Assembly: GCA_016933575.1 (NCBI GenBank)
Contig: JAFGAR010000004.1
Span: forward strand, 1 to 64,000
Origin: Candidatus Thorarchaeota archaeon
Lineage (GTDB): Archaea; Asgardarchaeota; Thorarchaeia; Thorarchaeales; Thorarchaeaceae
Length of the DNA stretch: 64,000 bases
Reading direction: 5' to 3'
Each line of letters opens with the position of its first letter. Positions within the stretch are counted from its first letter, which is position 1. Shown one piece after another: positions 10,471 through 62,937 of the stretch. The position numbers were made by a program, and so were the translations under genes. Below the pieces are notes generated by a model. That model did no database searches. It was not told where the DNA came from and worked only from the letters and a program-made list of their open reading frames with translations.

Positions 10471-10813
10471 AGTTACAGAGCCCCTCGGAGAAGTATTTGC
10501 TTCAGAACGTATTGAGCTTTACGATGGTCATTAAGAATAATGGTAGAAATACAGATATCAAACCTGCATGATTCTGGTTATCTTACAATCGCTGTAGACA
10601 TCACTACCTGCACGGGGGCTATTGATAGCTGAAATCTGCGGAGCGACAAGAGTATTCCGTCAGAGGGTCCAGTAGTCCTGATTATGATATATGCCTAAGA
10701 CAATTTATCAGTTCGTTTGTTATCAAATGGTATCGGCAAATATCAGTATAGTTTCTTAAGATTGGCAAGAGCTATGATTCTTTTTTCGTGATATTGCTTT
10801 GGAGGAGTCAATC
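10471..10813. other. Divergent promoter region before the giant surface protein
   Basis: No gene is visible. The stretch separates two genes transcribed outward and should hold both promoters. AT-rich elements occur near 10683 (TTATGATATATGCC) and 10772-10790 (GATTCTTTTTTCGTGATATT). The GGAGGAG ribosome binding site that decides the GTG start of the surface protein is at 10801-10807. Confidence 0.4.
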
Positions 10814-13800
10814 GTGGATTTTGGAAATGTACTGTTAAAGTTGGTGCATAAGAAATCAAAATTCTGCTTTCGAATTAGTGTTGTAATGATTCTTATAGTT
10901 ATGATCTCATTGGTCGAATTTGAGTACGCTGCAAATCAAGCACTACCTGTCGATAATCCAGTGCTGATACCTTATGAGAACACAACTGAGAGTGGTGATC
11001 CTCCACGAAATCCCTCTTCGTTGAAAGGACTTGTCCAAGAACTCATCGATCTCCTGCCTCCATATCCACCAGATGCAGATGACGATGGACTCCCTGATGT
11101 AGTGGAAGCGATTATCGGAACAAACTCTACGAACAATGACACAGACCACGATTCACTGACTGATTACTTTGAGGTATTTGCAGATTCGGACCCCTTAGAA
11201 CCAGATACAAACTTTGATGGACTGCCTGATAAACATGAGTTCTACGTTTCAGTCAGCGACATCGATGGAGATGGCATACCGAATGTTTGGGACTTTGATA
11301 ATGATGGCGATGGTGTCAATGATGACCTTGATGCTGACCCATTCAGAAGGACCAATACACGTATGGAATTTAATATGAGTATAGATTTGAGTGGTGTGTC
11401 AACATACATCACCTTTCAGTTGATACCTGCCAATGTCGAAAACCTACAGCTAGTAGATCAATTCTGGGATTGGCCCTATGATGCAACTGGTGCTATGCAA
11501 GATTTGGATTCTTCCAAGGAAGATGTGAAAGTCATTCCAATGTTGAATATCACACTCAATTCAATTCCTGAACAGACAGATGTGGAAGACTACGGAATTC
11601 AGGTGGTATCGAATGGCATCCATGTTCCTATCAGTCCTGTTATGGAAAATGAGCGAGTAGTGGCATTCAGTAGTAAAATGTTCTTTCCTGCGACAGAGCC
11701 CATTATCTTGATGATGAGCGTGGAACTCGAATGGGAGGTTATCGGGTTCACAGACATTAACGCAATTGCACTAAACTCCTCATCCAAAGGATATGTAATT
11801 ATAAATTCAACCGGATATAGTGTAGCTTGTGAATCCTCAATTGAGAATGCTGCACTTCAACGTGTGATCTGTGGGAGGAACCAAATAGCACTCAAAGAAG
11901 TTGGTGGTGGTTATCTCTCCGTGACTGAGGATGGTCGTGTTGTGGCAAGTGCATCCGATATAGATTCTGATGAAACATTTACTGTTCACTATATCGATGA
12001 TACCATCATCACTCTAGAGACTGCAGATCATAATTATATTGGAATTGGAGATGGTGGATTTCTCATTGCTAATGCAAGTTCTTCAACAGCAGAGCATTTC
12101 AATATGACAGACCTTGGATACAGACCTGATTCCACATTGCTTGTCACATATAATGAAGGTTTCATGCTCACAGGAATGGCTGTTGAAGAGATGCATTCCA
12201 GTAGTGTAGGTTTATTCTATAGCTCAAACAGAAACATGACACTAGCAGCTGATATGATCATACCCTACATCTTTCAACATAATTCAACAAATCATCTTGC
12301 TGATATTCCATCACTCCTACCAGACTACGACATCAGCCTTCAATCCATTACAGATGACTTTTCCCATCGTGACGAGGCACTGATCGCCCTTAGTAATGAG
12401 CTGATCCCATCTGCTCTGGAATACTTGCCTGACAATGAAAATTATCCAATCATCATTGCAACTGAAGATGCTATGAAGACTGCAGACCTATCAGACATAG
12501 TTCCTGAATCCTTTTTGATTACAGGTCCTATTGATCTGAATTTGACAGTATGTGATCTTGTGACATTGAAATCCTCCAAGACACACTTCTATAACACATC
12601 ATCTAAATCAGCTCTCTCTTTGATGGAGGTATTTGATGAGATTGATAGCTGGGCACTCAGTGAAAATGCCACATTCAACATCATATCCATGATGCTTCGC
12701 TGGCACACTGGTGAATATACTATATTTGACCCAAGTACTCCAACGGTACCGTATTCACCTGAAACAAGCCTAGTGGATACAGTTGTCTATGTGACAGTAT
12801 TAGGATTGGAAGCAGTTGGTGTGATTTCTCAAGGCCTAACAGGATGGAAGGCTTGGAAATGGTTGGACTCCATGTATACGAAGGGATGGAACAAGGCATC
12901 AGTTGGTAGGTATCTCAAGACCAAGAGCTCAAGCACCTTGACACAGTGGTCAAAGGTCTGCAAGGGTCTCGATAAGATTGATGATACTTCAAAGTTTGCC
13001 AAATCTGTAAATCGTCTTGATGAAATCATGTTGGTTGTAGGTATCATTATTGATCTAGGGATCTCCATAGCGGGAGGTATTATGCTAGCCAATAGTATCG
13101 GAGGTAGTTTTGGGAAAGCAGTAGGTGCCACATTTGGTACTGTTTCAGCTGTTGTTAGCCTGGTTATAACAGGCATTCTCTATGGAATAGTCCAGATTCC
13201 TTATGTTGGATGGGTATTGGCAATTGGTATGGTCATTGCTGACATGATTGGTGGATACTCAGATGAGCTTGTGTCGTGGTTGACAAATGTGATTGTCGGT
13301 GATGTAGAGGTCTATTCTAAAGTGACACCTTCATTTGATCGAGAAGAAGATTTTGATATCACAATTACAGACAAGGATAACAATGGACTTGATGCCAACG
13401 ATAGAATAGATGTTGTAGCTAGAATAATCGCTATTCTTAATGCGACAGGCCCTGGTCGAAATCAGGGAATTAGTGGTAGCCACAATATTCCAAAAATCAC
13501 TATAGCTCCTCCATGGGGTGCTCTGTACTCCAATACATGGGCGAGTGAACCTGTTGAGGAAGAAAGTGCTACGATGGAAGGAGATGGCTATACTGTCAAG
13601 GAGCGGACATACCGTTGTGAGGCGTGGATTGAACCTAGTACAGGTATGCCCAACTTTCCAGTGACTCTTATCCTGCACAATGATTTCTATTTGAATAATA
13701 TCTACCGCAATTATTGGCTTGGTCTTTTCCCAGAATATCACTATCAACCGCTGAGTGATTCCGAATCCACTTTAGAGTACGCAACTCTCTATTATGATGT

Positions 13801-16800
13801 GATGCCAGATAGTATTGAAAGCTTCACTCGTTGGAGATACATAACTCCTCTCGACCATGACCATGATGGTCTGAATGATGATGATGAACTCCCGGGCATG
13901 GCGTGGAAGTGGGACTTTGATCAGGATGGTCTGAGTGATTATTATGAAACGATCATTGGTTCAGACCCAGGTTCAGCAGATACGGATACTGATGGACTTA
14001 TTGATGGATGGGAACTGAATTATGGAACCAATATCACTGATAGAGACTCTGACAAGGATGGACTGAGAGACCTCAGAGAGATAGCAGGATGGCAGGTTTC
14101 CTTCGAGTTCGAATCCACGCCATTCAAGATCCATGTCTATGCAGACCCAAGAATTCCTGATTCTGAGGGGGATGGGATTGACGACTATAGCGAGTACTGG
14201 AGTAACACCAATCCTCGATCTTACGACACGAATGGTGATGGGACATGGGATGAGGAGAAACCCATGATGCAGTATTCAATAGAGTTCGAACGCAGTTGGG
14301 GCACGGATCAGCCTATCGATACAACATTTGCTAGTATTGAGAGTGACCTCAATGGAGACCTCTATGTCCTAATGGGTGATGGTGGATATTCAAGTGATAG
14401 TAGTTATTATCCAGGTGCAAGTACGTGGTGGATAACAAAACTGGACTCAAATCTCAGCGTTATACCAACAGGTTCCTATTTCTCAGCATTTGATGGAGAG
14501 CCTATATGTAAGCCAGTATTAACAATCGACAAGGAAAATGAAACATTATATTGCCATGATTTCTACTCCTATCCTGCAGACTGCATGTTCGAATCATATA
14601 GTCTTAATGGGAGTACGCATTACGGTACTATTGATACAGGCCAACCATGGATGTATGATGCCAGTTTTTCTCCACCTAACATGCTACATTATATTTGGGA
14701 CATCGAAAGCAGTGGTTTTCTTAGTTTAAATGAGATCCTCACGCCATCATCATGGACTTACGTGTGGGATGAATCCATTCCCAATATTGAATCAGACTTA
14801 GGTACACTTGGTCAGCCCATTTCCTGTGCATATAGCAAAGAGAATCAACTCATGTATGTTGCCTGTCAGAATAGAGTATTTGGTTATGATCCTACTGGAA
14901 CAATCAGCCCATTTCTCTTTGATGGGACGTTCACATATCCAAGGGGAATCACAATTAGTGATGAGAATATTATCTATGTTGCAGATACTGGTGGACATAG
15001 TATTCGTGCCTTTGATCTGAATGGTGAAGCAATTCCCACGTGGGGAATCAATGGAACCTATGGTTTCTCGGGTTATGAGGAGGGGAACTTCACAAATCCT
15101 ATGGACATCACTGTTGGAACTGATGGTTCATTTTACGTTGTCGAGAATTGGGTCGAACATGGAAGGGTTCAGAAATTTGTGTATAATAGTACATGTCAGA
15201 GTGATCAGCTCGTTGCCACCGATGATTCAGACTTTGATGGTCTCACAAATGAGGTCGAAGTAGCTGGATGGTCTACATCGATTACAGACTCCATCGGCAC
15301 TCATCAAGTCAATGTCTATAGTAACCCGCTCCTCAATGATTCTGACTACGATGATTTAGATGATTATACAGAGAATCAGATTGGAACTGATCCCCAAAGC
15401 ATTGATTCTGATGGTGATGGATTGAGTGACGCCATCGAGGTCGAGCTAGGTACTGATCCTCTTCATTGGGACTCAGATAGAGACCTACTTGGTGATGGCA
15501 CAGAGATCACCTATGGTTGTAGCCCTCTATCAGATGATACTGATGGTGATGAGCTCACAGATTTTACGGAGTTCCTACTTAACTCAGATGCAAATTCAAC
15601 AGATACCGACAATGATGGTCTTGATGACAAGACTGAGTTTGATTTCAATTCTAGTCTTGTGAACGCTGATTCGGATGGGGACCTCATGTTTGACGCACTT
15701 GAGTATGAAGAAGGCACGAATCCCAACTCTCTCGATTCTGATGGCGATGATGTAGTCGATGGTATTGAGATGCTATATGGTACGGATACAATGTTAGTGG
15801 ACACAGATGGCGATAGAGCTCCTGATGGGCTCGAGCTTGTGCTCTGGCTTGATCCTCTCTGTTCTGATTCTGATGGTGATGGACTGGGCGACATGGATGA
15901 GTTAGAATTTGGCGTGAATCCATGGAGCAATGATACTGATCTTGATGGGATTCCTGACCTCTACGACCCTGATTCCTTCAACACTGAGTTGCTTGATGTT
16001 CTCATTGTTTCTGACTCAGACATTCTCCTATGGAGTGAAGACTTTTGTGAAAATCTGGATGAACTCGCTGATGTATCCCTTCTTTCCTCTGATAATTTCA
16101 CTTCAAGTTACAGAGATTCTCCATATGTTGTCATGATTGGTAGACCTAAGGCTAATGAAGAAGGAATATGCGGATTGATGTATGATGTCCTTGAGGATAC
16201 TGGTAGTGTCCTTCAGGGAATGATGCAGCCGGGAGCTCACATGATTGCCACTCGATATGGTGTTTGGACAGAGACACAGACTGTAGTGATGTTGACCGAT
16301 GCAACAGGGTATGATGTCTACTCGGTACTTGCAGCACTCAAAGGAAAGGAGGTCACTGTCCTTCCTGACACGATCCGGATTGCGTACTCATCCTGTGCTG
16401 TGAATGCATCCAGCTATGCCGCCCGTTACGTGATGGACTCCATTGATGCCATCAAACAGACAGATTGTATTCTTGCCTTTATGATTGATTCATCTGAGAA
16501 TGTCGTGCTCAATGTGACGAGATACGCTGAGGAAACAACGCCTCATCCCCTAATAGCCAGTTCTGGATTGATGAATGATGAAGTATCTCTTGGAAGATAT
16601 ATAGACATCCAACTCACAGTTGGTGGAACAGAGACTCATGAGGTCGAAGAAGCACTTGTCAAGATGTATTATAGGCAATCTGATCTTGATATGAACAACA
16701 ATGGATTACTAAACGATACAGTGGATGTCAACGAGACTACATTGGTCCTCTATCACTTTAATGATACAACCGGGGTCTATACGAGACTATCTACTGATTT

Positions 16801-17029
16801 GGTTTGGGTTCATGCATGGGGTGTGAATACCACTGATGTTGAGATTTACGGTGAACTCTATGCGGGATATGTATGGGCCAGAGTTACTCACCTATCCATG
16901 TTAGCCATAGCTGGCTCTATGAATGTGTATTCTAGTCCAGACCAATCTCTCCTAATGATTCTGATAGTATCCTCTGGAATTATTGGTATTCTTTTGGTAG
17001 TTTTCCTCATTAAGCGGAGGAAACAATGA
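10814..17029 (+). CDS. Giant surface protein: Asp-rich repeats, beta-trefoil, NHL-like, C-terminal anchor
   Basis: The GTG at 10814 is chosen over the TTG at 10799 because GGAGGAG lies 6 nt before it. The 2071-residue product starts with a signal peptide (FRISVVMILIVMISLV). Three blocks of thrombospondin-3/calcium-type repeats with DxDxDG loops lie at about residues 87-176, 1015-1146 and 1472-1721. A fascin-like beta-trefoil half (GGYLSVTEDGRVVASASDI, then FLIANASSSTAEHF) lies at about 320-430. A hydrophobic, Gly-rich region at about 655-815 (VGIIIDLGISIAGGIMLANS and others) could insert into a membrane. NHL-like blades (IIYVADTGGHSIRAFDLNGE) lie at about 1370-1450. A C-terminal helix ends in KRRKQ. 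It likely forms or decorates the cell surface and binds calcium. Domain calls apart from the repeats are by eye. Confidence 0.85.
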   Translation: MDFGNVLLKLVHKKSKFCFRISVVMILIVMISLVEFEYAANQALPVDNPVLIPYENTTESGDPPRNPSSLKGLVQELIDLLPPYPPDADDDGLPDVVEAIIGTNSTNNDTDHDSLTDYFEVFADSDPLEPDTNFDGLPDKHEFYVSVSDIDGDGIPNVWDFDNDGDGVNDDLDADPFRRTNTRMEFNMSIDLSGVSTYITFQLIPANVENLQLVDQFWDWPYDATGAMQDLDSSKEDVKVIPMLNITLNSIPEQTDVEDYGIQVVSNGIHVPISPVMENERVVAFSSKMFFPATEPIILMMSVELEWEVIGFTDINAIALNSSSKGYVIINSTGYSVACESSIENAALQRVICGRNQIALKEVGGGYLSVTEDGRVVASASDIDSDETFTVHYIDDTIITLETADHNYIGIGDGGFLIANASSSTAEHFNMTDLGYRPDSTLLVTYNEGFMLTGMAVEEMHSSSVGLFYSSNRNMTLAADMIIPYIFQHNSTNHLADIPSLLPDYDISLQSITDDFSHRDEALIALSNELIPSALEYLPDNENYPIIIATEDAMKTADLSDIVPESFLITGPIDLNLTVCDLVTLKSSKTHFYNTSSKSALSLMEVFDEIDSWALSENATFNIISMMLRWHTGEYTIFDPSTPTVPYSPETSLVDTVVYVTVLGLEAVGVISQGLTGWKAWKWLDSMYTKGWNKASVGRYLKTKSSSTLTQWSKVCKGLDKIDDTSKFAKSVNRLDEIMLVVGIIIDLGISIAGGIMLANSIGGSFGKAVGATFGTVSAVVSLVITGILYGIVQIPYVGWVLAIGMVIADMIGGYSDELVSWLTNVIVGDVEVYSKVTPSFDREEDFDITITDKDNNGLDANDRIDVVARIIAILNATGPGRNQGISGSHNIPKITIAPPWGALYSNTWASEPVEEESATMEGDGYTVKERTYRCEAWIEPSTGMPNFPVTLILHNDFYLNNIYRNYWLGLFPEYHYQPLSDSESTLEYATLYYDVMPDSIESFTRWRYITPLDHDHDGLNDDDELPGMAWKWDFDQDGLSDYYETIIGSDPGSADTDTDGLIDGWELNYGTNITDRDSDKDGLRDLREIAGWQVSFEFESTPFKIHVYADPRIPDSEGDGIDDYSEYWSNTNPRSYDTNGDGTWDEEKPMMQYSIEFERSWGTDQPIDTTFASIESDLNGDLYVLMGDGGYSSDSSYYPGASTWWITKLDSNLSVIPTGSYFSAFDGEPICKPVLTIDKENETLYCHDFYSYPADCMFESYSLNGSTHYGTIDTGQPWMYDASFSPPNMLHYIWDIESSGFLSLNEILTPSSWTYVWDESIPNIESDLGTLGQPISCAYSKENQLMYVACQNRVFGYDPTGTISPFLFDGTFTYPRGITISDENIIYVADTGGHSIRAFDLNGEAIPTWGINGTYGFSGYEEGNFTNPMDITVGTDGSFYVVENWVEHGRVQKFVYNSTCQSDQLVATDDSDFDGLTNEVEVAGWSTSITDSIGTHQVNVYSNPLLNDSDYDDLDDYTENQIGTDPQSIDSDGDGLSDAIEVELGTDPLHWDSDRDLLGDGTEITYGCSPLSDDTDGDELTDFTEFLLNSDANSTDTDNDGLDDKTEFDFNSSLVNADSDGDLMFDALEYEEGTNPNSLDSDGDDVVDGIEMLYGTDTMLVDTDGDRAPDGLELVLWLDPLCSDSDGDGLGDMDELEFGVNPWSNDTDLDGIPDLYDPDSFNTELLDVLIVSDSDILLWSEDFCENLDELADVSLLSSDNFTSSYRDSPYVVMIGRPKANEEGICGLMYDVLEDTGSVLQGMMQPGAHMIATRYGVWTETQTVVMLTDATGYDVYSVLAALKGKEVTVLPDTIRIAYSSCAVNASSYAARYVMDSIDAIKQTDCILAFMIDSSENVVLNVTRYAEETTPHPLIASSGLMNDEVSLGRYIDIQLTVGGTETHEVEEALVKMYYRQSDLDMNNNGLLNDTVDVNETTLVLYHFNDTTGVYTRLSTDLVWVHAWGVNTTDVEIYGELYAGYVWARVTHLSMLAIAGSMNVYSSPDQSLLMILIVSSGIIGILLVVFLIKRRKQ

Positions 17030-17940: not shown

Positions 17941-18043
17941 GGTTATATCTAAAGCGCCATAGAAAAGATATCAATATTGACATTAGCTGCATAAATCAGG
18001 TACCTTTTTTTCATAACTGTGCATTTGAAAACCAGTGAATCTA

Positions 18044-19423
18044 ATGACAGGAAGACTGTTTGGTACTACTGGTGTCAGGAAGGTCTATGGTGAAGAGTTC
18101 GATCTTGAGATGGCATTGAATCTTGGGAAAGCCTTGGGGACCTATCTGAAGGGAGAGGGAACAGTCATCCTTGCTCGAGACGCAAGAACAACAGGATTGA
18201 TGGTGGCCGATACGCTCTCAGCTGGTCTACTCTCTACTGGAGTCAATGTGGTTCGAGGAGGAATCATGCCAACGCCGACTCTTGCTTACACGACAAAGAG
18301 GAAAGGATTTCATGCTGGATTGATGGTGACTGCATCTCACAATCCACCGGAGTACACAGGCATTAAGTTCTGGTCGAAGAATAGTATGGGATTCACACCA
18401 AATGAGGAGAGAGAACTCGAACAGATCTACGAGTCTAAAGAATTCATTGTTGCAGCTTGGGATAAGCTGGGAGAAGAACGTGTCTTAGAGACCGCTGTAG
18501 AGGACCATATTAATGATATTTTGAAAAAATGTGATAGTGACCTGATACGTTCAAAATCATTCAAGGTCATTGTTGATCCAGGAAATGGAGCTGCCTGTGT
18601 TCTGACACCGTATCTGATGCAACAAATAGCATCGAAAGTGATTACAATCAATGGTCAATTAGACGGTCATTTTCCAGGAAGGAAATCAGAACCTGAAGAG
18701 AGCTCTCTCGGTGACCTGATTCAGATGATGAAACAAACCAAAGCGGATCTTGGAATTGCACATGATGGAGATGCGGACAGGGTGGTCTTTGTGACAAGAG
18801 AGGGAGAAGTAATCAGAGGTGATAGAACCATTGCACTTCTTGCCCAAGACTATCTGATGACAGATAAACCAGGGACTATTGTGACCACAGTGGATAGCTC
18901 GCTTGTATTGGACGAGACCATCGAAAATGCAGGAGGAAAGAGCATCCGTACTCCTGTTGGTGACATTCAAGTTGCTATCAAGGTACAAGATACCAAAGCA
19001 GTCATGGGGGGTGAGGCGTGTGGGGTCTTCATACTCCCCGAGTTCCATCTAGCCCCAGAGCCTTTTCTTGCAGCCTGTAGGATCTTGGAGAAGATGGCTC
19101 GTACAGGAAAGAGCTTTGGTGAGCTGATCGCAGAGATTCCAATTTATCCGTTGATGAAGGCGAAAGTGGAATGCTCGAATGACAAGAAACAGGCAGTCAT
19201 GGATAGACTCTCAACAGCCCTGCCAGAGGGATTGAAGGATGTAGTTCAAGTTCTCACCGTTGATGGTATTGGTATCACATTGAAAGAGGGATGGATTCTC
19301 GTTAGACCATCAGGAACAGAACCAGTGATTAGAATTACCTGCGAAAGACCTAGTGCAGAACTGGTTGAAACCACTCTGAATAGTGCAAAAACAATTGTTG
19401 AGAGTGTGATTGATACAACATGA
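18044..19423 (+). CDS. Phosphoglucosamine mutase / phosphomannomutase
   Basis: This 459-residue alpha-D-phosphohexomutase interconverts the 1- and 6-phosphates of a hexose or hexosamine. The start MTGRLFGTTGVRKVYGEEF gives the normal N-terminus; a GTG at 18035 would add three residues. The phospho-serine loop TASHNPPEYTGIK, the metal loop AHDGDADRVVFV, the sugar loop GGEACGVFI and the phosphate-binding RPSGTEPVIRIT are all intact. In archaea this type often acts as phosphoglucosamine mutase, feeding UDP-GlcNAc, but mannose use cannot be excluded. UDP-GlcNAc would supply both the BshA homologue at 20677 and the UDP-GlcNAc epimerase at 61834. Confidence 0.9.
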   Translation: MTGRLFGTTGVRKVYGEEFDLEMALNLGKALGTYLKGEGTVILARDARTTGLMVADTLSAGLLSTGVNVVRGGIMPTPTLAYTTKRKGFHAGLMVTASHNPPEYTGIKFWSKNSMGFTPNEERELEQIYESKEFIVAAWDKLGEERVLETAVEDHINDILKKCDSDLIRSKSFKVIVDPGNGAACVLTPYLMQQIASKVITINGQLDGHFPGRKSEPEESSLGDLIQMMKQTKADLGIAHDGDADRVVFVTREGEVIRGDRTIALLAQDYLMTDKPGTIVTTVDSSLVLDETIENAGGKSIRTPVGDIQVAIKVQDTKAVMGGEACGVFILPEFHLAPEPFLAACRILEKMARTGKSFGELIAEIPIYPLMKAKVECSNDKKQAVMDRLSTALPEGLKDVVQVLTVDGIGITLKEGWILVRPSGTEPVIRITCERPSAELVETTLNSAKTIVESVIDTT

Positions 19424-19502: not shown

Positions 19503-19910
19503 ATGAGCAAAGAAAAGAAAGAACTTGAAGATGCCGTCATGGAGGAATTCGAGTGGGCACTTCAAGATCCAAATACAGAGAAGATTCGTCAGCTCGGAGA
19601 AGTGGTGAGTATTATCACTACGAAGCTTACAGAGGCAATCAGTGAACTTCAAGTCACTACCGGTCAACTCAGATCACAGCTAGAATCCTTGGATTCGAGG
19701 GTGAGTTCACTCTCAAGTCGTATTGCAAGTGGCGGGACGATATCACCAGGAGCTGCATCTCTTGGTGGTGGTATGGGAGATGAACCAATCCCAACCATGG
19801 CAAAAGCTCCTACTGCGCCTCCGCCATCAGCAGGTGGAGGGATGAGTATGATGGGCGAATTGAAGCAACTACTTGCAGCCAGAAGAAGAAAGACTGAAAC
19901 CGGAGATTAA
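19503..19910 (+). CDS. Small coiled-coil, Gly/Pro-rich protein with basic C-terminal helix
   Basis: No family was recognised. The 135 residues divide into a charged helical start (KKELEDAVMEEFEWAL), a coiled coil of roughly residues 30-75 with regular hydrophobic spacing (TEAISELQVTTGQLRSQLE, LDSRVSSLSSRIAS), a flexible Gly/Ala/Pro linker (PTMAKAPTAPPPSAGGG) and a short basic helix at the end (GELKQLLAARRRK). ATG 19503 has GGAG 8 nt upstream, and TTTATAGC near 19455 could be its TATA box. Coiled coil, proline-rich linker and short basic helix recall small cytoskeletal regulators, but no residue pattern proves it. Confidence 0.7.
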   Translation: MSKEKKELEDAVMEEFEWALQDPNTEKIRQLGEVVSIITTKLTEAISELQVTTGQLRSQLESLDSRVSSLSSRIASGGTISPGAASLGGGMGDEPIPTMAKAPTAPPPSAGGGMSMMGELKQLLAARRRKTETGD

Positions 19911-19919
19911 CAACTTCTG

Positions 19920-20573
19920 TCATAGTAGGGATTCAACACTATTCTCCTTGTAAAACGGACCAGCATGCTCAGGTAGAGTAATTGTAAAAGCCTCAGCACG
20001 ATCGCACTTTGCCTGTATCCCTCTGAGTCGCGTTCTAGCATCATAGAGCTTCTCATAGAAGGAGTCAATCTTTTGTATCTGCGATTTGTGTTCCTTCAAT
20101 GCATGTAGGGCAATAGGGTAGGTATCCGAGATGTTCACATGCACATGAGGATGAGGTATCATCGTATTGATTTCCATATTGTAAATTCGATCCACACGAT
20201 GTGCATCATCAAAGACGGTCGTGTGAGAAGCCCATTCGACTGCATCAAAGACAAGTTTTGCACATTGTTGATGATTCAGATTGTAGTCATCAAGAGAATG
20301 GGTGATGATGACCTTCGGGCGGGTCTTCAGTATTGCACCGATGATCTCATTCCTCAAGGTCATGTCGATTGCAAAGTCATCGCGCTCACTAAGATAGAGA
20401 TTCCGGGCTCCAAGAAAAGAGCATGCAGACCTTAGCTCTGCATTCCGAACCTCGTTGCCTGTCATGCAATGGATATCAACCGGAATTCCCTGGTCAGTGT
20501 GTCTTTTGATTGTGCCGCCAGCACCTATGCACTCGTCGTCAGGATGAGCAACGACTACCAGAATCGAATCCAT
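19920..20573 (-). CDS. LmbE/PIG-L family deacetylase (BshB-like candidate)
   Basis: A 217-residue zinc hydrolase of the LmbE/PIG-L family, which removes acetyl groups from N-acetylglucosaminyl compounds. The zinc motif VVAHPDDECIGAGGTI (His10, Asp13) and the second histidine region HSLDDYNLNHQQCAKLV are present. It is transcribed divergently from the bshA-like gene, with 103 nt between their starts. In bacillithiol-making bacteria BshB deacetylates GlcNAc-malate between BshA and BshC, and this enzyme is the natural candidate for that step. Alternatives are a bacillithiol-S-conjugate amidase (Mca-like) or an unrelated sugar deacetylase. A second LmbE protein lies at 61075. Confidence 0.85.
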   Translation of the reverse strand: MDSILVVVAHPDDECIGAGGTIKRHTDQGIPVDIHCMTGNEVRNAELRSACSFLGARNLYLSERDDFAIDMTLRNEIIGAILKTRPKVIITHSLDDYNLNHQQCAKLVFDAVEWASHTTVFDDAHRVDRIYNMEINTMIPHPHVHVNISDTYPIALHALKEHKSQIQKIDSFYEKLYDARTRLRGIQAKCDRAEAFTITLPEHAGPFYKENSVESLL

Positions 20574-20633
20574 ACGTGGTTCTTCTTTCGGTATCTAATC
20601 AAGTTTTGGCAAGGAGAGTTGTTCAAACCAAGT

Positions 20634-20643
20634 GCCTTAAAGG
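20634..20643 (+). promoter_or_regulatory. TATA-like element of the bshA-bshC unit
   Basis: GCCTTAAAGG lies about 34 nt before the bshA ATG, with a purine-rich GGGAAGGG site in between, a spacing fitting an archaeal promoter with a short leader. It is a weak match, called by position only. Confidence 0.3.
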
Positions 20644-20676
20644 GGAAAAAACAGTACCCTGGGAAGGGTTTCTACT

Positions 20677-21840
20677 ATGCGCATCGGCGTAAATCTATAT
20701 CCATCAGTTGGCGGTTCAGGATATGTCGCGACAAGACTAGGACAGCATCTGACTGATAAAGGCCACATCATCCATTTCATCACTTATCAGAGACCATTCT
20801 CAATGATGTGGCAGCAGACAAAAGGAGTTCATGTTGATCTTGTTGATAGATTCGACTACCCTCTATTTGGAGCAATAGGACCTCCATACACAATGGCTCT
20901 TACATCAAAGATCATTAAAGTTGCCAAAGCAGCCGAATTAGATGTTCTGCATGCACACTATGCAATCCCACATGCAATGGCGGCATACATGGCTCGAGAG
21001 ATTGTCAATTTACCTTATGTTGTAACACTACATGGATCAGATGTTCATTCACTCGGTCTAGACCCAGCATATCAACCGGTCGTGCAGTACACGGTGGAGA
21101 AGGCTGATGGGGTCACAGCAGTTTCTGAGTTCTTGAAAAAGAAAGCCATTGAAGAACTTGGAATTGAGAGAGACATCAAAGTGATTCCAAACTTTATTGA
21201 TACGACCCAGTTCTCACGGGTCAAGGGAGTCAGACTTGTTGTAGAGAGTGGATGTGTGTCAGTAAGGAGAGAAGATGAAGCAATCGAGATTAGCCCTGAT
21301 GAGAAGATACTCCTTCACGCTTCCAACTTCCGAGAAGTCAAGCGTATTGTAGAACTCATAGAAATAATGCGAATCATTGTCAACGAGAATCCCAAAGCAC
21401 GTCTTATTATCGCAGGGGATGGTCCAACACGAATCGATGTTGAGCGGCGCATTGAGAAACTAAAGTTATGTAACAATGTACATCTCTTAGGTGTAAAGAG
21501 CAATATGCAAGAGATCATGTGTTCTGCGGACCTCCTTCTTCTTAACTCAACACTTGAGGGAATGCCTCTAGTTCTTCTTGAAGCCATGGCCTGTAGCCTT
21601 CCTGTGGTCACTACACCAGCTGGAGGAATTCCTGAACTTGTGCGTGCTGGAAAAGATGGTTTTGTGACTAAGGGATACGAGAATGAGGAATTTGCAGAAG
21701 CTGTACTTGGGCTGCTTAACAATGATGACGAGAGAAGAAGACTCGGACACGCGGGACGATTGCGTGCAAATGATTTCGATTCAAAGAAGATAGTTCCAAT
21801 GTATGAGAAGGTCTTTGAGGAAGTTCTCGAAAAGAAGTGA
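20677..21840 (+). CDS. bshA: BshA-like GT4 glycosyltransferase (N-acetylglucosaminyl malate synthase)
   Basis: This 387-residue GT4 enzyme resembles BshA more than generic GT4 proteins. BshA joins UDP-GlcNAc and L-malate in the first step of bacillithiol synthesis. Diagnostic stretches are the start IGVNLYPSVGGSGYVATRLG, then HIIHFITYQRPF, LHAHYAIPHAMAAYMA, VTLHGSDVHSLGLDP, ILLHASNFREVKRI and the GT4 EX7E motif EGMPLVLLE (Glu294 and Glu302). About ten residues are inserted before the second Rossmann domain (around VESGCVSVRREDEAI). It is followed after 12 nt by the bshC-like gene, and the deacetylase gene diverges from it. The neighbour BshC homologue strongly supports the pathway call; the acceptor has not been proven to be malate. 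Confidence 0.82.
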   Translation: MRIGVNLYPSVGGSGYVATRLGQHLTDKGHIIHFITYQRPFSMMWQQTKGVHVDLVDRFDYPLFGAIGPPYTMALTSKIIKVAKAAELDVLHAHYAIPHAMAAYMAREIVNLPYVVTLHGSDVHSLGLDPAYQPVVQYTVEKADGVTAVSEFLKKKAIEELGIERDIKVIPNFIDTTQFSRVKGVRLVVESGCVSVRREDEAIEISPDEKILLHASNFREVKRIVELIEIMRIIVNENPKARLIIAGDGPTRIDVERRIEKLKLCNNVHLLGVKSNMQEIMCSADLLLLNSTLEGMPLVLLEAMACSLPVVTTPAGGIPELVRAGKDGFVTKGYENEEFAEAVLGLLNNDDERRRLGHAGRLRANDFDSKKIVPMYEKVFEEVLEKK

Positions 21841-21852
21841 GAGGTAGGGACT

Positions 21853-23568
21853 TTGAAACCCAGCGTATACAATGTCTATCAGGACTTTATCTGGAAAGAA
21901 CAAAATGTCAATTTAGCAAGTACATTGTATAACATGCCCCCACTCACCTTAGATAGTCTACATGAACGAATTCCAACTCTGAAGAAAGAGTATCGAGAGA
22001 CGTTGTGGCACATTGAAGATAGAATGGACCAGTTGGAGAAGGCACTCATATCAATCAATCAAGACCTTCATTGTCTTAACCCCGAGGTTGAATCAAATAT
22101 TTGTCTCTTGAGAGATGGCGCAATAGAGGCTGCCCATCAGTCAGTTGTACTTGGTGGTCCTTCATACATATTGAACAAGGCAGTAACAGCTAATCAGGTT
22201 GCTAAATTTTGTCAGGACAAGGGGATTGACATTGGAGTATTCTTCTGTGTAGCTGATTACGATAGTGTCCAATCAGAATTGACGAACATACGCATTCCAG
22301 TGATGGGATCTGGTGGTACTCTGATTAGCATCCCAACGCCCGAGGGATTTGAATTCTCACCGGTCAATGTTATCCCTCTACCAAGAAAGGACTGGTATGA
22401 TAAAGTCGAGGATGATATTAGGGATAGCTATCGTCCAATGTTCAAGCCTCTAGAGGGACCAAAAAGATTGGTATTTGAGGAACGCTTGGAGCAAGCACTG
22501 GCAGTTAGTCGTTGGGGTTTTCTCAATTCTAAGACACTAGGAGAGTGGGCCATGAGGATCATGGGTAGACTCTTCAATATCGAAGGAAATTTAGGAATAC
22601 CTCTTGTTCCTGCTTCAACGCCTGAAGTGAGGGACTTGCTAATTGAGGGGATGGAGCTATTACTGGATAGGAGTAATCGGGAGAGGATGATAGATACTTT
22701 CAATGATGTGACCTCACTCATTGAAAGCAATGGTTACAATCCAGGTGTAGGTCCAAGAGCTACAGATTATGTTCCGTTCTTCTACGAGTGTCCTGAGAAG
22801 GAGTGCAACAGTGCCCGTACCGAGCTGCACTATGAAGACCATGGGTCAACTGCTGTTCTGACAGGTAAATGTCCAATCTGTTCAGAGAACATTGAGATTG
22901 AAACACCCTCAGAGAGTCCCTATTTGGGGGACATTGCAAGACATATCTCACCACGGGTGGATTCTAGGCAGCTTGTGATTGATACTATTATTCCAACTAT
23001 GGCACATATTGGAGGTCCTGGAGAAACTGCATACTATGCACAGGTTATCCCCAGTGCTAAAGCAATGGGATTACCATTTCCAGAGTTTATAAAATATCCA
23101 AGGGTCTACTTCAATACCCCATGGAATGAGAGTCTGGCGAAATCGCTGGAAGAGAAAGATATCAAAGTCCTGCATGGTAGCAACCTGTTCAGCTCTTTAG
23201 GGAAGCTCTCTCGTTTTAGAAAGAAGAACAGATTTGAGGACATGAATGAAGAGCTAGTGAATTTCACGAATTTACTACTGACCACGCACTCTGATTTGAA
23301 TAGGAAATTAGCTGAAATTGATACGGACATTGGTCAGTCATCAAAAGATGAGATAGAATTTCTTCAATCTCTCAAACTTGAGATAGAACGATATCTTAGT
23401 TGGACCTTTGGGCAGTATGCTGAAGAAAAATTTGGACAAGAGTCTTCATGGTCGTGGATAGAATGGGCTATCAACTCTGGATTCGTAGATCTATTTGGAC
23501 CATATGAGCGTGCATATGTCGGTCAGATGAAGAATGGTGCGACTGTCTTTGTAAACTTCTCAATATAA
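21853..23568 (+). CDS. bshC: BshC-like cysteine-adding enzyme with zinc-ribbon insert
   Basis: The 571-residue product starts at a TTG behind GAGGTAGGGA, 12 nt after bshA. BshC is the putative cysteine ligase that completes bacillithiol from GlcN-malate. Matches are AAHQSVVLGGPSYILNKAV (the TGQQxGLxxGPLYTxxKA site, diverged), and further on HISPRVDSRQLVIDTIIPT and MAHIGGPGETAYYAQVIP, which are close to the conserved BshC core. The C-terminus has the expected helical coiled coil (LNRKLAEIDTDIGQSSKDE). Unusual is a zinc ribbon Cys313-X4-Cys318 ... Cys340-X2-Cys343. The usual GQQ reads HQS, so whether it is catalytically equal to BshC needs testing. A hairpin follows the stop. Confidence 0.8.
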   Translation: MKPSVYNVYQDFIWKEQNVNLASTLYNMPPLTLDSLHERIPTLKKEYRETLWHIEDRMDQLEKALISINQDLHCLNPEVESNICLLRDGAIEAAHQSVVLGGPSYILNKAVTANQVAKFCQDKGIDIGVFFCVADYDSVQSELTNIRIPVMGSGGTLISIPTPEGFEFSPVNVIPLPRKDWYDKVEDDIRDSYRPMFKPLEGPKRLVFEERLEQALAVSRWGFLNSKTLGEWAMRIMGRLFNIEGNLGIPLVPASTPEVRDLLIEGMELLLDRSNRERMIDTFNDVTSLIESNGYNPGVGPRATDYVPFFYECPEKECNSARTELHYEDHGSTAVLTGKCPICSENIEIETPSESPYLGDIARHISPRVDSRQLVIDTIIPTMAHIGGPGETAYYAQVIPSAKAMGLPFPEFIKYPRVYFNTPWNESLAKSLEEKDIKVLHGSNLFSSLGKLSRFRKKNRFEDMNEELVNFTNLLLTTHSDLNRKLAEIDTDIGQSSKDEIEFLQSLKLEIERYLSWTFGQYAEEKFGQESSWSWIEWAINSGFVDLFGPYERAYVGQMKNGATVFVNFSI

Positions 23569-23608: not shown

Positions 23609-24880
23609 CTAACCAAGCTCAGTTGAGAGAAGCTTACCCAGACGTTCTATTCCCTCAGAGATGATCTCGGGAGAAGCATATGAGAAACCAAGTCGCATTG
23701 TATTTGGTTCAGGTACACTTGTTTCTAATTCCTTACCATTTGATGAAACTGTATAGCCTGTTATTGGATAGAATGGTCCACCGGGCACATAGAGTAGCTC
23801 ATTTGGAATTGCAACACGCTGCATGAACTCACTCGAGTCGAAATCAGGTTTCGCGCTCTGCCACCAAATGAAGAAACCTCCTGTTGGATCAGTTCTTGTA
23901 CCATCTGGGAAGAACTCATCCATTGCCTTTGCCATTGCTTCATACCGTTTCTTGTATAGAGGTATACCGACTTTCATCGCTTGGTCAATATATTTTCTAT
24001 AATACTCATCCAATATTCGTTGAACAAGAGTTGTTGTACAGAGATCAAGGTAGCCCTTGTCTTTTAGCACCTGTTCGCGAACATTGACTGGGAGAACGGA
24101 GTATCCAACTCTCAAAACAGCTGCTTCCTTGCTACTTGTACCAAGATAGGCAACACGAGTGTTTTCCTTATCAAGCGTCTTTATTGGCTTTGGATTTGGT
24201 TTGAATTGAATCTCGGCATAAGCGGAGTCTTCCAGAAGGAGGATATTGTGGTTCTCGCATATATCGAATAGGGCTCTTCGTCGCTTCATTGAAAGCGTGG
24301 TACCCTTTGGATTATCACTGTCAGGAACTACATAGAGTAGGTCTGGAGTCTTACCGAAATTGATCTTTGAGAGGTGAATAGCTCGTTCAACAAATTCAGG
24401 GATGATTCCTTCATTATCAGTAGGTATTGTGATAACACGAGCTCCAAGTTTGACAGCAGGTACGAGAAATCCGAGGTATGCGGGTGAAGGTGTAAGAATG
24501 ACATCACCGGGATCAATCAATGTATCGAGCAGAGCATAAAGTGCCTGTTGCGAACCATTAGTGATTGAAACACGATCCCACTCATCCTCACAATTTATCG
24601 GTATCTTCCGAACATCGCAAAGCCGTTTAGCCAGTGTTTTCAGGAACCAAGTCTGACCACCTGTCGGCCCATAGTTAAGGTCGTCAAGGGCCATTGCTGG
24701 GTTTTCTTTATACTTGACACTGAGATCTGCCATAATATCAGCGAAGATATCAGTAGGAATGATTCCAGGTTTTCCTCCAGCAAAGTAGTATTTTACACTA
24801 AATTTTAGAAGGGCACGAATCTGAGACTCCTCTATGAAAGAAGTCCATGTTGCAAAACCATAGCCTCGATCATTTGCCAT
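23609..24880 (-). CDS. PLP-dependent aminotransferase, class I/II
   Basis: This 423-residue fold-type I aminotransferase is closest by eye to 2-aminoadipate / aromatic or MocR-type aminotransferases without a DNA-binding domain. Visible are YGPTGGQTWFLKTLAKRL, TNGSQQALYALLDTL (PLP phosphate), SPAYLGFLVPAV, VPDSDNPKGTTLS (the Asn that holds PLP), LLEDSAYAEIQ (the Asp/Tyr pair) and GTSSKEAAVLRVGY with the Schiff-base Lys and phosphate Arg. ATG 24880 has GGAG 9 nt upstream. The substrate is unknown: aspartate, aromatic and branched amino acids are all possible. Confidence 0.88.
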   Translation of the reverse strand: MANDRGYGFATWTSFIEESQIRALLKFSVKYYFAGGKPGIIPTDIFADIMADLSVKYKENPAMALDDLNYGPTGGQTWFLKTLAKRLCDVRKIPINCEDEWDRVSITNGSQQALYALLDTLIDPGDVILTPSPAYLGFLVPAVKLGARVITIPTDNEGIIPEFVERAIHLSKINFGKTPDLLYVVPDSDNPKGTTLSMKRRRALFDICENHNILLLEDSAYAEIQFKPNPKPIKTLDKENTRVAYLGTSSKEAAVLRVGYSVLPVNVREQVLKDKGYLDLCTTTLVQRILDEYYRKYIDQAMKVGIPLYKKRYEAMAKAMDEFFPDGTRTDPTGGFFIWWQSAKPDFDSSEFMQRVAIPNELLYVPGGPFYPITGYTVSSNGKELETSVPEPNTMRLGFSYASPEIISEGIERLGKLLSTELG

Positions 24881-61074: not shown

Positions 61075-61710
61075 ATGAACTTCAAAAATGTCTTACTCAT
61101 ATCTGCGCATCCTGATGATGCAGAAATTGGAGCGGGAGGAACCATTGCATTCTTGGCACATCGAGGTGCACAGATAGACCATCTAGTCTTTAGTCAGTGT
61201 ACAAAGAGCTTGCCAACAGGGATTACACAGGATCAACTACTTGATGAATGTCGAGCCGCCGACAAGATACTTGGTATCCAAGATACAGAGATTCTGGATT
61301 ATCCTGTTCGAAGGTTCAATGAATATCGCCAAGAGATTCTCGATATCCTGTGGCAAAAACGTCAACAAAAATATGATCTGATACTATGTCACTGGCCAAA
61401 TGATACTCATCAAGACCATCAACAACTAGCTAATGAGGTTGTACGAGCTTGGAAACGTGCCCTACCAACAATTCTATTTTATGAGATTCCAGCGAATTGT
61501 ATGGGATTTGCTCCAAACTACTTCTTCATACTTTCAGAGAGAGAAGTCGAAACCAAACTTAATGCACTCAATGAATATCAGAGTCAAGTTATACGAACAC
61601 CAGAATATTTCTCATTGGATAAATTCCGAGCTGTTCTAACCTACACAGGAATGCTTGTTGGCGAGAAATATGCTGAAGGATTCGTAATGCACACTAGCAC
61701 TATCCGATAA
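61075..61710 (+). CDS. LmbE/PIG-L family deacetylase (second copy)
   Basis: A 211-residue zinc deacetylase: LLISAHPDDAEIGAGGTIAF (His12, Asp15) and LCHWPNDTHQDHQQLANEVV with the third ligand. It is only distantly similar to the LmbE protein at 19920. In this setting, between an acyltransferase-SDR pair and a UDP-GlcNAc 2-epimerase, it probably deacetylates a GlcNAc-type sugar. It may also be an alternative BshB for the bacillithiol-like pathway. Confidence 0.88.
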   Translation: MNFKNVLLISAHPDDAEIGAGGTIAFLAHRGAQIDHLVFSQCTKSLPTGITQDQLLDECRAADKILGIQDTEILDYPVRRFNEYRQEILDILWQKRQQKYDLILCHWPNDTHQDHQQLANEVVRAWKRALPTILFYEIPANCMGFAPNYFFILSEREVETKLNALNEYQSQVIRTPEYFSLDKFRAVLTYTGMLVGEKYAEGFVMHTSTIR

Positions 61711-61833: not shown

Positions 61834-62937
61834 ATGCTCGTTTCAATCGTTACTGGAACAAGGCCGCAGATAATCAAATCAGCCCCTGTCATTCATGCAA
61901 TGAGACAACAAGGTGTTGATTATGAGTTCGTTCATACAGGGCAACATTATGACTTTGAACTAGCGCAATCATTTGTCAATGATTTTGATCTGAGTAAACC
62001 ATTCAATCTTCACGTCGGGTCTGGAGATTATTGCTATCAAGTCTATTCGACCATTGAACGTCTGTCGGATCATTACCAAAAAAATCGCCCAGATATTATG
62101 ATTGTTCCAGGAGATACAACCTCTGCTCTGGGTGCGTCTATGGTTGGGTTCAAGATGGAGATTCCCGTATGTCATCTTGAGTCAGGTCTTCGAAGATACG
62201 ATCTTACAGTTCAAGAGGAACTTAACAGAAGACTAATTGACCATGGTTCATCCGCCCTATTTGCGCCTACACCTACAGCTGCAGAGAATCTCGAACTTGA
62301 ACGAGTACAAGGAGAAGTGTACATGCTAGGTGATACAATGTATGATGTGCTCAAGAATCGGATGAAGATCTTTCTAGACCCACCATTTCAGGAAGAAGTG
62401 CTCTCAAAATACAATGTATCAACTGGAGATTATGCGATAATGACATTTCATCGAAGAGAGCATGTCGATGTCAAATCCAATCTTGAGCAAATTGTCAATG
62501 CTATCAATCAATTAGAGTTTCCAATTATCCTGGCAATGCATCCGAGAACAAAAAAGAACCTTATCGATGCCCATCTCGAGTTGAAGAGTCCGAATCTGCG
62601 TGTCGTTGCTCCACTTCCATATGATGAATTCATGTGCTTGATGGCAAATGCTGGTCTTGCAATCTCTGACTCGGGGGGTATACAGAAGGAGAGTTACATT
62701 CTTGGAACCCCACTTGTTTCACTGCATAATTGCACAGAATGGGTTGAAACTCTGAAATATGGTAAACATAGATTGGGTGAGCTAAAAACTGACCGAATTC
62801 TGAATGACTGCAAAGACCTTTTTGGAAAGAGGTATGAGAGTGACCCTTCAGTTTATGGGGATGGAAAATCAGCGGAGAAGATACTACCAATACTCCTCTC
62901 TGGTGAAGTGAAAATCCCAACAAAACTTCGTTATTGA
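61834..62937 (+). CDS. wecB: UDP-N-acetylglucosamine 2-epimerase (WecB)
   Basis: The 367-residue product converts UDP-GlcNAc to UDP-ManNAc. The start LVSIVTGTRPQIIKSAPVIH, then FVHTGQHYDFELAQSF, IMIVPGDTTSALGASMVG, VCHLESGLRRYDLTVQEELN, MTFHRREHVDVKSNLEQIV and ISDSGGIQKESYILGTPLV are the full WecB pattern. ATG 61834 follows GGAGG. Together with the dehydrogenase at 54952 it would make UDP-ManNAcA for surface glycans. Confidence 0.93.
   Translation: MLVSIVTGTRPQIIKSAPVIHAMRQQGVDYEFVHTGQHYDFELAQSFVNDFDLSKPFNLHVGSGDYCYQVYSTIERLSDHYQKNRPDIMIVPGDTTSALGASMVGFKMEIPVCHLESGLRRYDLTVQEELNRRLIDHGSSALFAPTPTAAENLELERVQGEVYMLGDTMYDVLKNRMKIFLDPPFQEEVLSKYNVSTGDYAIMTFHRREHVDVKSNLEQIVNAINQLEFPIILAMHPRTKKNLIDAHLELKSPNLRVVAPLPYDEFMCLMANAGLAISDSGGIQKESYILGTPLVSLHNCTEWVETLKYGKHRLGELKTDRILNDCKDLFGKRYESDPSVYGDGKSAEKILPILLSGEVKIPTKLRY

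Follow-up and report, generated by a model that had tools for sequence, protein, structure and literature searches.

A divergent bacillithiol-type gene cluster in Thorarchaeota and its relatives across the Asgard archaea

The window analyzed here is a stretch of 64,000 nucleotides from a Candidatus Thorarchaeota genome (assembly GCA_016933575.1, contig JAFGAR010000004.1, positions 1 to 64,000). Between positions 19,920 and 23,568, three adjacent genes encode a PIG-L/LmbE deacetylase, a GT4 glycosyltransferase of the BshA family, and a BshC-like protein. These are the same three enzyme families that are used for the biosynthesis of bacillithiol (BSH) by BshA, BshB1/B2, and BshC in Bacillus, Staphylococcus, Thermus, and Bacteroidota. 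The cluster probably directs the synthesis of a bacillithiol-type, low-molecular-weight cysteinyl-glucosamine thiol, as judged from sequence comparisons. A preliminary description of this DNA had placed a deacetylase gene, bshA, and bshC here, with 12 nt between bshA and bshC and the deacetylase gene diverging; all three open reading frames (ORFs) and this layout were confirmed. The features of the locus are as follows.

18035..19423, + strand: archaeal phosphoglucosamine mutase GlmM, for the supply of UDP-N-acetylglucosamine (UDP-GlcNAc); 508.1 bits against TIGR03990 (Arch_GlmM), cut-off 439
19503..19910, + strand: small ORF of 135 amino acids (aa), apparently coiled-coil, between glmM and bshB; gene family f5, 21 loci
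19920..20573, - strand: PIG-L/LmbE deacetylase, 217 aa, proposed BshB step (GlcNAc-X to GlcN-X); PF02585, with BshB1 as the nearest model
20574..20676, no strand: divergent intergenic region of bshB and bshA, 103 nt, from the ORF coordinates
20677..21840, + strand: BshA, GT4 glycosyltransferase, 387 aa, proposed first step (UDP-sugar plus malate or a similar acid); TIGR03999
21556..21567, + strand: donor-sugar loop EGMP of BshA, residues 294-297, from the alignment; loop function according to PMC10361700
21853..23568, + strand: BshC-like protein, 571 aa, of a divergent Asgard-specific clade, proposed cysteine-adding third step; PF10079 and profile comparisons
22789..22881, + strand: Cys4 zinc-ribbon-like insert of the BshC-like protein (C313, C318, C340, and C343), from the alignment
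23609..24880, - strand: class I/II pyridoxal phosphate-dependent aminotransferase, convergent with bshC; 70.4 bits against PF00155

The BshA of the window scores 388.9 bits against TIGR03999, an NCBIfam equivalog model with a cut-off of 273.7, and matches the BshA structures 5d00 and 3mbo in the PDB with an E value of about 1e-75. Residues 8-19 of the protein are YPSVGGSGYVAT. Bacterial and Asgard BshA form one clade in a tree rooted with 12 other Asgard GT4 enzymes (support of 99 in the Shimodaira-Hasegawa-like approximate likelihood ratio test, SH-aLRT), and the protein is thereby set apart from other Asgard GT4 enzymes, as its earlier assignment would have it. The activity of Staphylococcus aureus BshA is abolished by mutation of H118, T120, K209, E280, or E288 (PMC10361700). 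The counterparts of these residues in the window are H119, S121 (a conservative replacement of T120), K222, E294, and E302; N172 is also conserved. The protein is 79% and 75% identical to BshA from two Candidatus Thorarchaeota genomes, in agreement with the Asgard host that had been named for this DNA, and the genome with the 75% match has the same cluster of bshB, bshA, and bshC. Genome families are denoted here by codes (f1, f11, and so on); f1 is the family of the window and is termed Thorarchaeal from these two matches.

The deacetylase scores 74.3 bits against PF02585 (PIG-L), over the cut-off of 28.2, and contains the AHPDD metal motif. Among 47 Asgard homologues, H10, D12, D13, D96, and H101 do not vary. 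Even in f5, f6, and G039, where the deacetylase gene is unlinked, it belongs to the same subfamily.

The BshC-like protein scores 66.9 bits against PF10079 (cut-off, 27), a family that among 14 control genomes is matched only in Bacillus, Thermus, and Deinobacterium. When the Asgard BshC profile was searched against the whole PDB, the sole match at E ≤ 1 was 4wbd, which is BshC (E = 1.6e-24). Alignment of the Asgard profile with that of bacterial-type BshC using hhalign covered 399 columns (99.9%, E = 5.9e-31). Ten residues do not vary between the bacterial proteins (Bacillus, Paenibacillus, and Deinococcus) and those of Thorarchaeota: Q96, G102, K109, D137, E142, F309, R322, G388, E391, and Y394. 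Residues 386-397 of the BshC-like protein are IGGPGETAYYAQ. Because of these matches and the ten invariant residues, the protein is assigned to a remote branch of the BshC superfamily; the homology rests on profiles, and the predicted structure is uninformative (mean predicted local distance difference test score of 34.5). The Thorarchaeal proteins carry an insert, a hairpin with the pairs C313-x4-C318 and C340-x2-C343, that was not found in the aligned bacterial-type BshC. C313 and C340 are invariant across 24 aligned divergent Asgard BshC. C318 is missing at its position in f5-f10, and f9 and f10 carry a cysteine two residues earlier. The insert may bind zinc. The ORF begins with TTG, has GAGGTAGGG (a GAGGT-type site) upstream, and shares its start residue with many homologues.

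PF10079 is present in 105 of 228 genomes of the Asgard phylum, and BshA over the cut-off in 90 of the 228. The two genes lie within 5 kb of each other in 79 of the 85 genomes that have both, a count that covers 98 of the BshC genomes. In five of the six exceptions the genes are on different contigs, and in the sixth they are about 8 kb apart. The Thorarchaeal loci fetched for comparison have the arrangement of the window, glmM, orf, <bshB, bshA>, bshC>. The order is bshC> <bshA with bshB beyond in f12, f7, and most of f8, bshC> <bshA with bshB farther off in f6, and bshC>bshB>bshA in f11 and f24. The survival of linkage through these rearrangements is good evidence for a shared function of bshA, bshB, and bshC, and chance proximity is ruled out by the 79 linked genomes together with the repeated Thorarchaeal arrangement. 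The earlier recognition of the three genes as a BshA/BshB/BshC-type set is supported, and the set is conserved. At the 78 bacterial bshA loci examined, the Asgard models revealed neither bshB nor bshC within about 5 kb, in contrast to the Thorarchaeal genes, which are clustered with each other and with glmM; bacterial homologues may be harder for these models to recognize, which makes the comparison weak on the bacterial side. No viral occurrence was found.

GlmM is encoded by the nearest annotated gene upstream of bshB and adjoins the cluster in other Thorarchaeal loci as well (gene family f4), which links the cluster to UDP-GlcNAc. On the side of thiol use, DinB_2 (PF12867) is found in 41 of 47 Thorarchaeal genomes in up to 13 copies, with 4 copies in the genome of the window. 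In B. subtilis, DinB/STL proteins are bacillithiol S-transferases, and eight of them are active (PMC5815605). Among the 227 Asgard genomes tabulated of the 228, DinB_2 is present in 93 of 105 BshC-positive genomes, in which it is expanded, and in 24 of 122 BshC-negative genomes, in which it is rare; the Fisher p value of 6e-27 ignores relatedness and is taken to indicate no more than a strong association at the level of families. Two of the DinB proteins have a HEAMH motif, consistent with a histidine triad, and could act as S-transferases. No full-length gamma-glutamylcysteine ligase was found in the 47 Thorarchaeal genomes. Matches to PF04107 were rejected as candidates for this enzyme, since they cover about 45 aa inside a 1150-aa ORF. 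This 45-aa GCS2-like stretch within a conserved ORF of about 1150 aa occurs in 32 of the 47 genomes.

From these observations we infer substrates, product, and physiological role as follows. GlmM would feed the synthesis of UDP-GlcNAc. BshA, as a retaining enzyme, would then attach an N-acetylhexosamine (GlcNAc in the most likely case) to a small hydroxy acid, most likely malate. The acetyl group would be removed by the PIG-L enzyme using one catalytic metal ion, and the BshC-like enzyme would couple cysteine to the free amine. The thiol could buffer metals and the redox state and act as co-substrate for the many DinB-type S-transferases of these genomes. A cysteinyl-glucosamine thiol is the best reading because of the clustering, the adjoining GlmM, and the DinB genes that track BshC.

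Several results weigh against this reading. The best NCBIfam model for the deacetylase is BshB1 (TIGR04001) with 76.7 bits, below the equivalog cut-off of 182.5, and the BshC-like protein scores 72.7 bits (E = 2.7e-20) against TIGR03998, below the equivalog cut-off of 265.8. The preliminary names therefore hold in part: the LmbE protein is a PIG-L enzyme in a conserved set, and the third protein is homologous to BshC with BshC as its only solved-structure match, but both fall short of the equivalog level. The donor-sugar loop of BshA is EGMP in 24 of 24 Thorarchaeal sequences and EGAP in 7 of 7 from f12, whereas every other group covering the loop, including 81 bacterial BshA, has ESFG or ETFG. 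At the positions of the E22/R44 pair (B. anthracis numbering), the window protein has R20 and S42, and Thorarchaeal sequences have R with S or A. Unlike the bacterial system, Thorarchaea lack matches over the cut-offs for two kinds of proteins of bacillithiol utilization: the bacilliredoxins BrxA/BrxB (TIGR04191) appear in 0 of 47 genomes, and the bacillithiol disulfide reductase YpdA (TIGR04018) in none of the 47, with weak matches at the flavoprotein level. Rawat and Maupin-Furlow (2020) likewise found only two archaeal YpdA homologues, and no thiol of this kind is known to have been measured in any archaeon (PMC7278568).

The altered sites of BshA bear on which molecule is made. The ESFG loop (residues 280-283) of S. 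aureus BshA holds GlcNAc, with S281 in contact with the acetyl group, and a UDP-galactose enzyme whose P-to-G mutant prefers UDP-glucose has proline where BshA has G283 (PMC10361700). The S281 and G283 positions are occupied by G and P in all of the Thorarchaeal and f12 sequences and by S/T and G in the other groups. The E22/R44 pair belongs to the N-terminal (acceptor) domain. It shows little or no variation among the 81 bacterial BshA examined and is kept in f11 and f24; it is altered in every divergent Asgard family. Since both loop and pair are altered, the donor and the acceptor of Thorarchaeal BshA are not to be presumed. What stands of its description as a UDP-GlcNAc and malate enzyme is the family membership; GlcNAc and malate are the likely substrates by analogy. 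The same chemistry might therefore give another molecule, a sub-case of the thiol reading in which BshA of Thorarchaea and f12 would use a different sugar nucleotide (e.g., UDP-N-acetylgalactosamine) or acceptor to make a new thiol of the bacillithiol/mycothiol type. We regard this as unlikely, though a serious candidate. Many GT4 enzymes that differ in their donors have loops of the EGxP type, and the loop alone leaves the donor unfixed. The E22/R44 residues may form a salt bridge rather than an acceptor contact, since an R/E swap is found at these positions in 5 of 7 f12 sequences, and the pair is not claimed as proof of an altered acceptor. The adjoining GlmM likewise suggests GlcNAc metabolism. 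R138 of B. anthracis BshA, considered as a malate contact by analogy with MshA, was rejected as a marker because the position is variable among bacterial BshA.

The other sub-case is that the product is canonical bacillithiol, the same as that of Bacillus, with the sequence differences due to neutral drift. BshA over its equivalog cut-off, the retained catalytic residues, the co-occurrence of DinB, and an Asgard family (f11, below) in which all three enzymes pass their equivalog cut-offs are consistent with it. The donor-loop change is, however, fixed in 31 of 31 Thorarchaeal and f12 sequences, and Thorarchaeal BshC is 15-19% identical to the bacterial type, with the zinc-ribbon-like insert added. 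Canonical bacillithiol is given somewhat less than an even chance. A distinct variant of the bacillithiol pathway is suggested by the presence of all three genes, by how widely they are conserved, and by the changes in the active sites.

In f11 (loci L103-L106) and f24 (L118), the genes form a bacterial-type bshC-bshB-bshA operon. For locus L104 of f11, scores of 386.5, 222.5, and 423.8 bits were obtained for BshC, BshB1, and BshA, respectively, all over the equivalog cut-offs, and f11 therefore probably makes true bacillithiol; the f11/f24 operon is the best archaeal candidate for it. The f11 operon belongs to the same phylum and enzyme families as the Thorarchaeal cluster, from which it differs in gene order, in the scores of L104, and in a BshC that is nested among bacteria.

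Other families have a divergent BshC in different company. In f19 and f20 (L114:2626-5955, L116:5246-8571, L117, and L120), a GT2 glycosyltransferase, BshB1, and a divergent BshC are encoded in a row; the BshB1 of L114 is over the equivalog cut-off, and no BshA over the cut-off was found in these genomes. These families possibly build a thiol with a different glycosyltransferase. A divergent BshC is also present in f9 and f10 (L098-L102), where neither BshA over the cut-off nor Asgard-type BshB was found; in f9 it adjoins the same aminotransferase family as Thorarchaeal bshC. BshC-like proteins in these four families that occur without BshA, and beside a GT2 enzyme in two of them, would suit a function outside thiol synthesis, in which an amino acid other than cysteine is attached by the BshC-like enzyme, or a glycan or the head group of a lipid is decorated by the three enzymes. 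The in vitro activity of BshC was also yet to be shown as of 2015 (PMC4360819). This alternative is nevertheless improbable, given that most BshC-positive Asgard families have BshA, BshB, and BshC together and that the genes for DinB thiol transferases track them.

The history of the cluster was examined with trees that were quick and made without bootstraps, and the BshC branches are long. All divergent Asgard BshC sequences form one clade apart from bacteria (SH-aLRT 100), and f11 and f24 are placed with the bacterial type. In the BshA tree, a branch with a support of 93 has the bacteria on one side; Thorarchaea are sister to f12, and f5-f8 group as a clade, in accord with the BshC tree for these families. 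The two trees agree broadly in order, with f11 as the exception. The simplest reading is that of an old Asgard system that was inherited as a set, with f11 and f24 having acquired a bacterial-type BshC. For the divergent BshC class, a recent transfer from bacteria was rejected on the basis of the Asgard-only clade. Bacterial contamination, mis-binning, or a recent single transfer might be suspected, as bacterial BSH pathways are common and the draft genome of the window (3.47 Mb, 85.5% complete) is 6.9% contaminated. The probability of such an origin is close to nil: the synteny of glmM, bshB, bshA, and bshC is repeated in other Thorarchaeal loci, including the single-contig genome G186, the divergent BshC is confined to the Asgard clade, and the base composition and GC content at third codon positions of the cluster genes are close to those of neighboring genes. 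A wider proposal combines an ancient, Asgard-inherited pathway that was not recently borrowed, a non-bacillithiol thiol in Thorarchaea and their sister family through an altered BshA (donor or acceptor) and the zinc-ribbon BshC, and another thiol in f19 and f20 through GT2 in place of BshA. As a whole, this proposal is rather doubtful.

The Thorarchaeal cluster has in common with the bacterial bacillithiol system an equivalog-level BshA, the BshA catalytic residues, and the ten invariant BshC positions; it differs in the divergent BshC with its Cys4 insert, the sub-threshold BshB, and the EGMP loop. The logic of a GT4 enzyme, a PIG-L deacetylase, and a cysteine ligase is also that of mycothiol synthesis (MshA, MshB, and MshC). 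The MshA model gives 60.7 bits (cut-off, 462.5) against 388.9 for BshA, however, and the MshB model gives 29.3 bits (cut-off, 224.35) against 76.7 for BshB1, and both equivalogs fail. For MshC there was no NCBIfam match, and the third enzyme matches the BshC model only.

A UDP-GlcNAc-derived thiol in an Asgard cell would be new according to the preliminary description. Homologues of BshA and BshC in Asgard archaea were, however, already reported in 2020, with 39 archaeal InterPro hits each, mostly Asgard, and with the proposal that archaea may make BSH, which was undetected there (PMC7278568). Relative to the passages considered here from that review, the additions are the deacetylase and the cluster, the two Asgard classes of BshC (divergent and bacterial-type), the change in the donor loop, the zinc-ribbon-like insert of BshC, the links to GlmM and DinB, and the families that have BshC but no BshA. 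A 2025 study found no RefSeq archaeon with a full pathway using BLAST with Chlorobaculum queries (E of 1e-20, identity >25%, and coverage >80%) (PMC12719100). That statement is in need of correction at least for uncultured Asgard genomes, because L104 passes all three cut-offs.

No other group is closer than the Asgard archaea to the host of the eukaryotic cell, and eukaryotes use glutathione; for the Asgard archaea themselves, the literature considered here establishes no major thiol. From the gene set, which is conserved in about 40% of the Asgard genomes, one can predict the lineages that should contain a cysteinyl-glucosamine thiol and those that should lack it. With the donor loop altered and a zinc-ribbon-like insert present in BshC, the identity of the product becomes a testable question.

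Of the remaining genes at the locus, the 135-aa ORF between glmM and bshB is kept in nearly all Thorarchaeal loci; a Pfam search with it gave no convincing match. The aminotransferase (gene family f3) adjoins bshC not only in Thorarchaeal loci but also in two loci of f9. A Tsr3-like rRNA-modification gene, with PF04034 detected in L085, is located close to bshA or bshC in f6, f7, and some members of f8 (L084-L091, L096, and L097). A second PIG-L deacetylase is encoded in the window at 61075-61710. Its assignment as a bacillithiol-conjugate amidase is unsupported, since the neighboring gene (61834-62937) encodes a UDP-GlcNAc 2-epimerase, and it probably functions in glycan metabolism. The 2076-aa ORF at 10799-17029 probably encodes a surface protein; it has one hydrophobic segment near each end and numerous D-rich repeats of the calcium type, similar to thrombospondin type 3.

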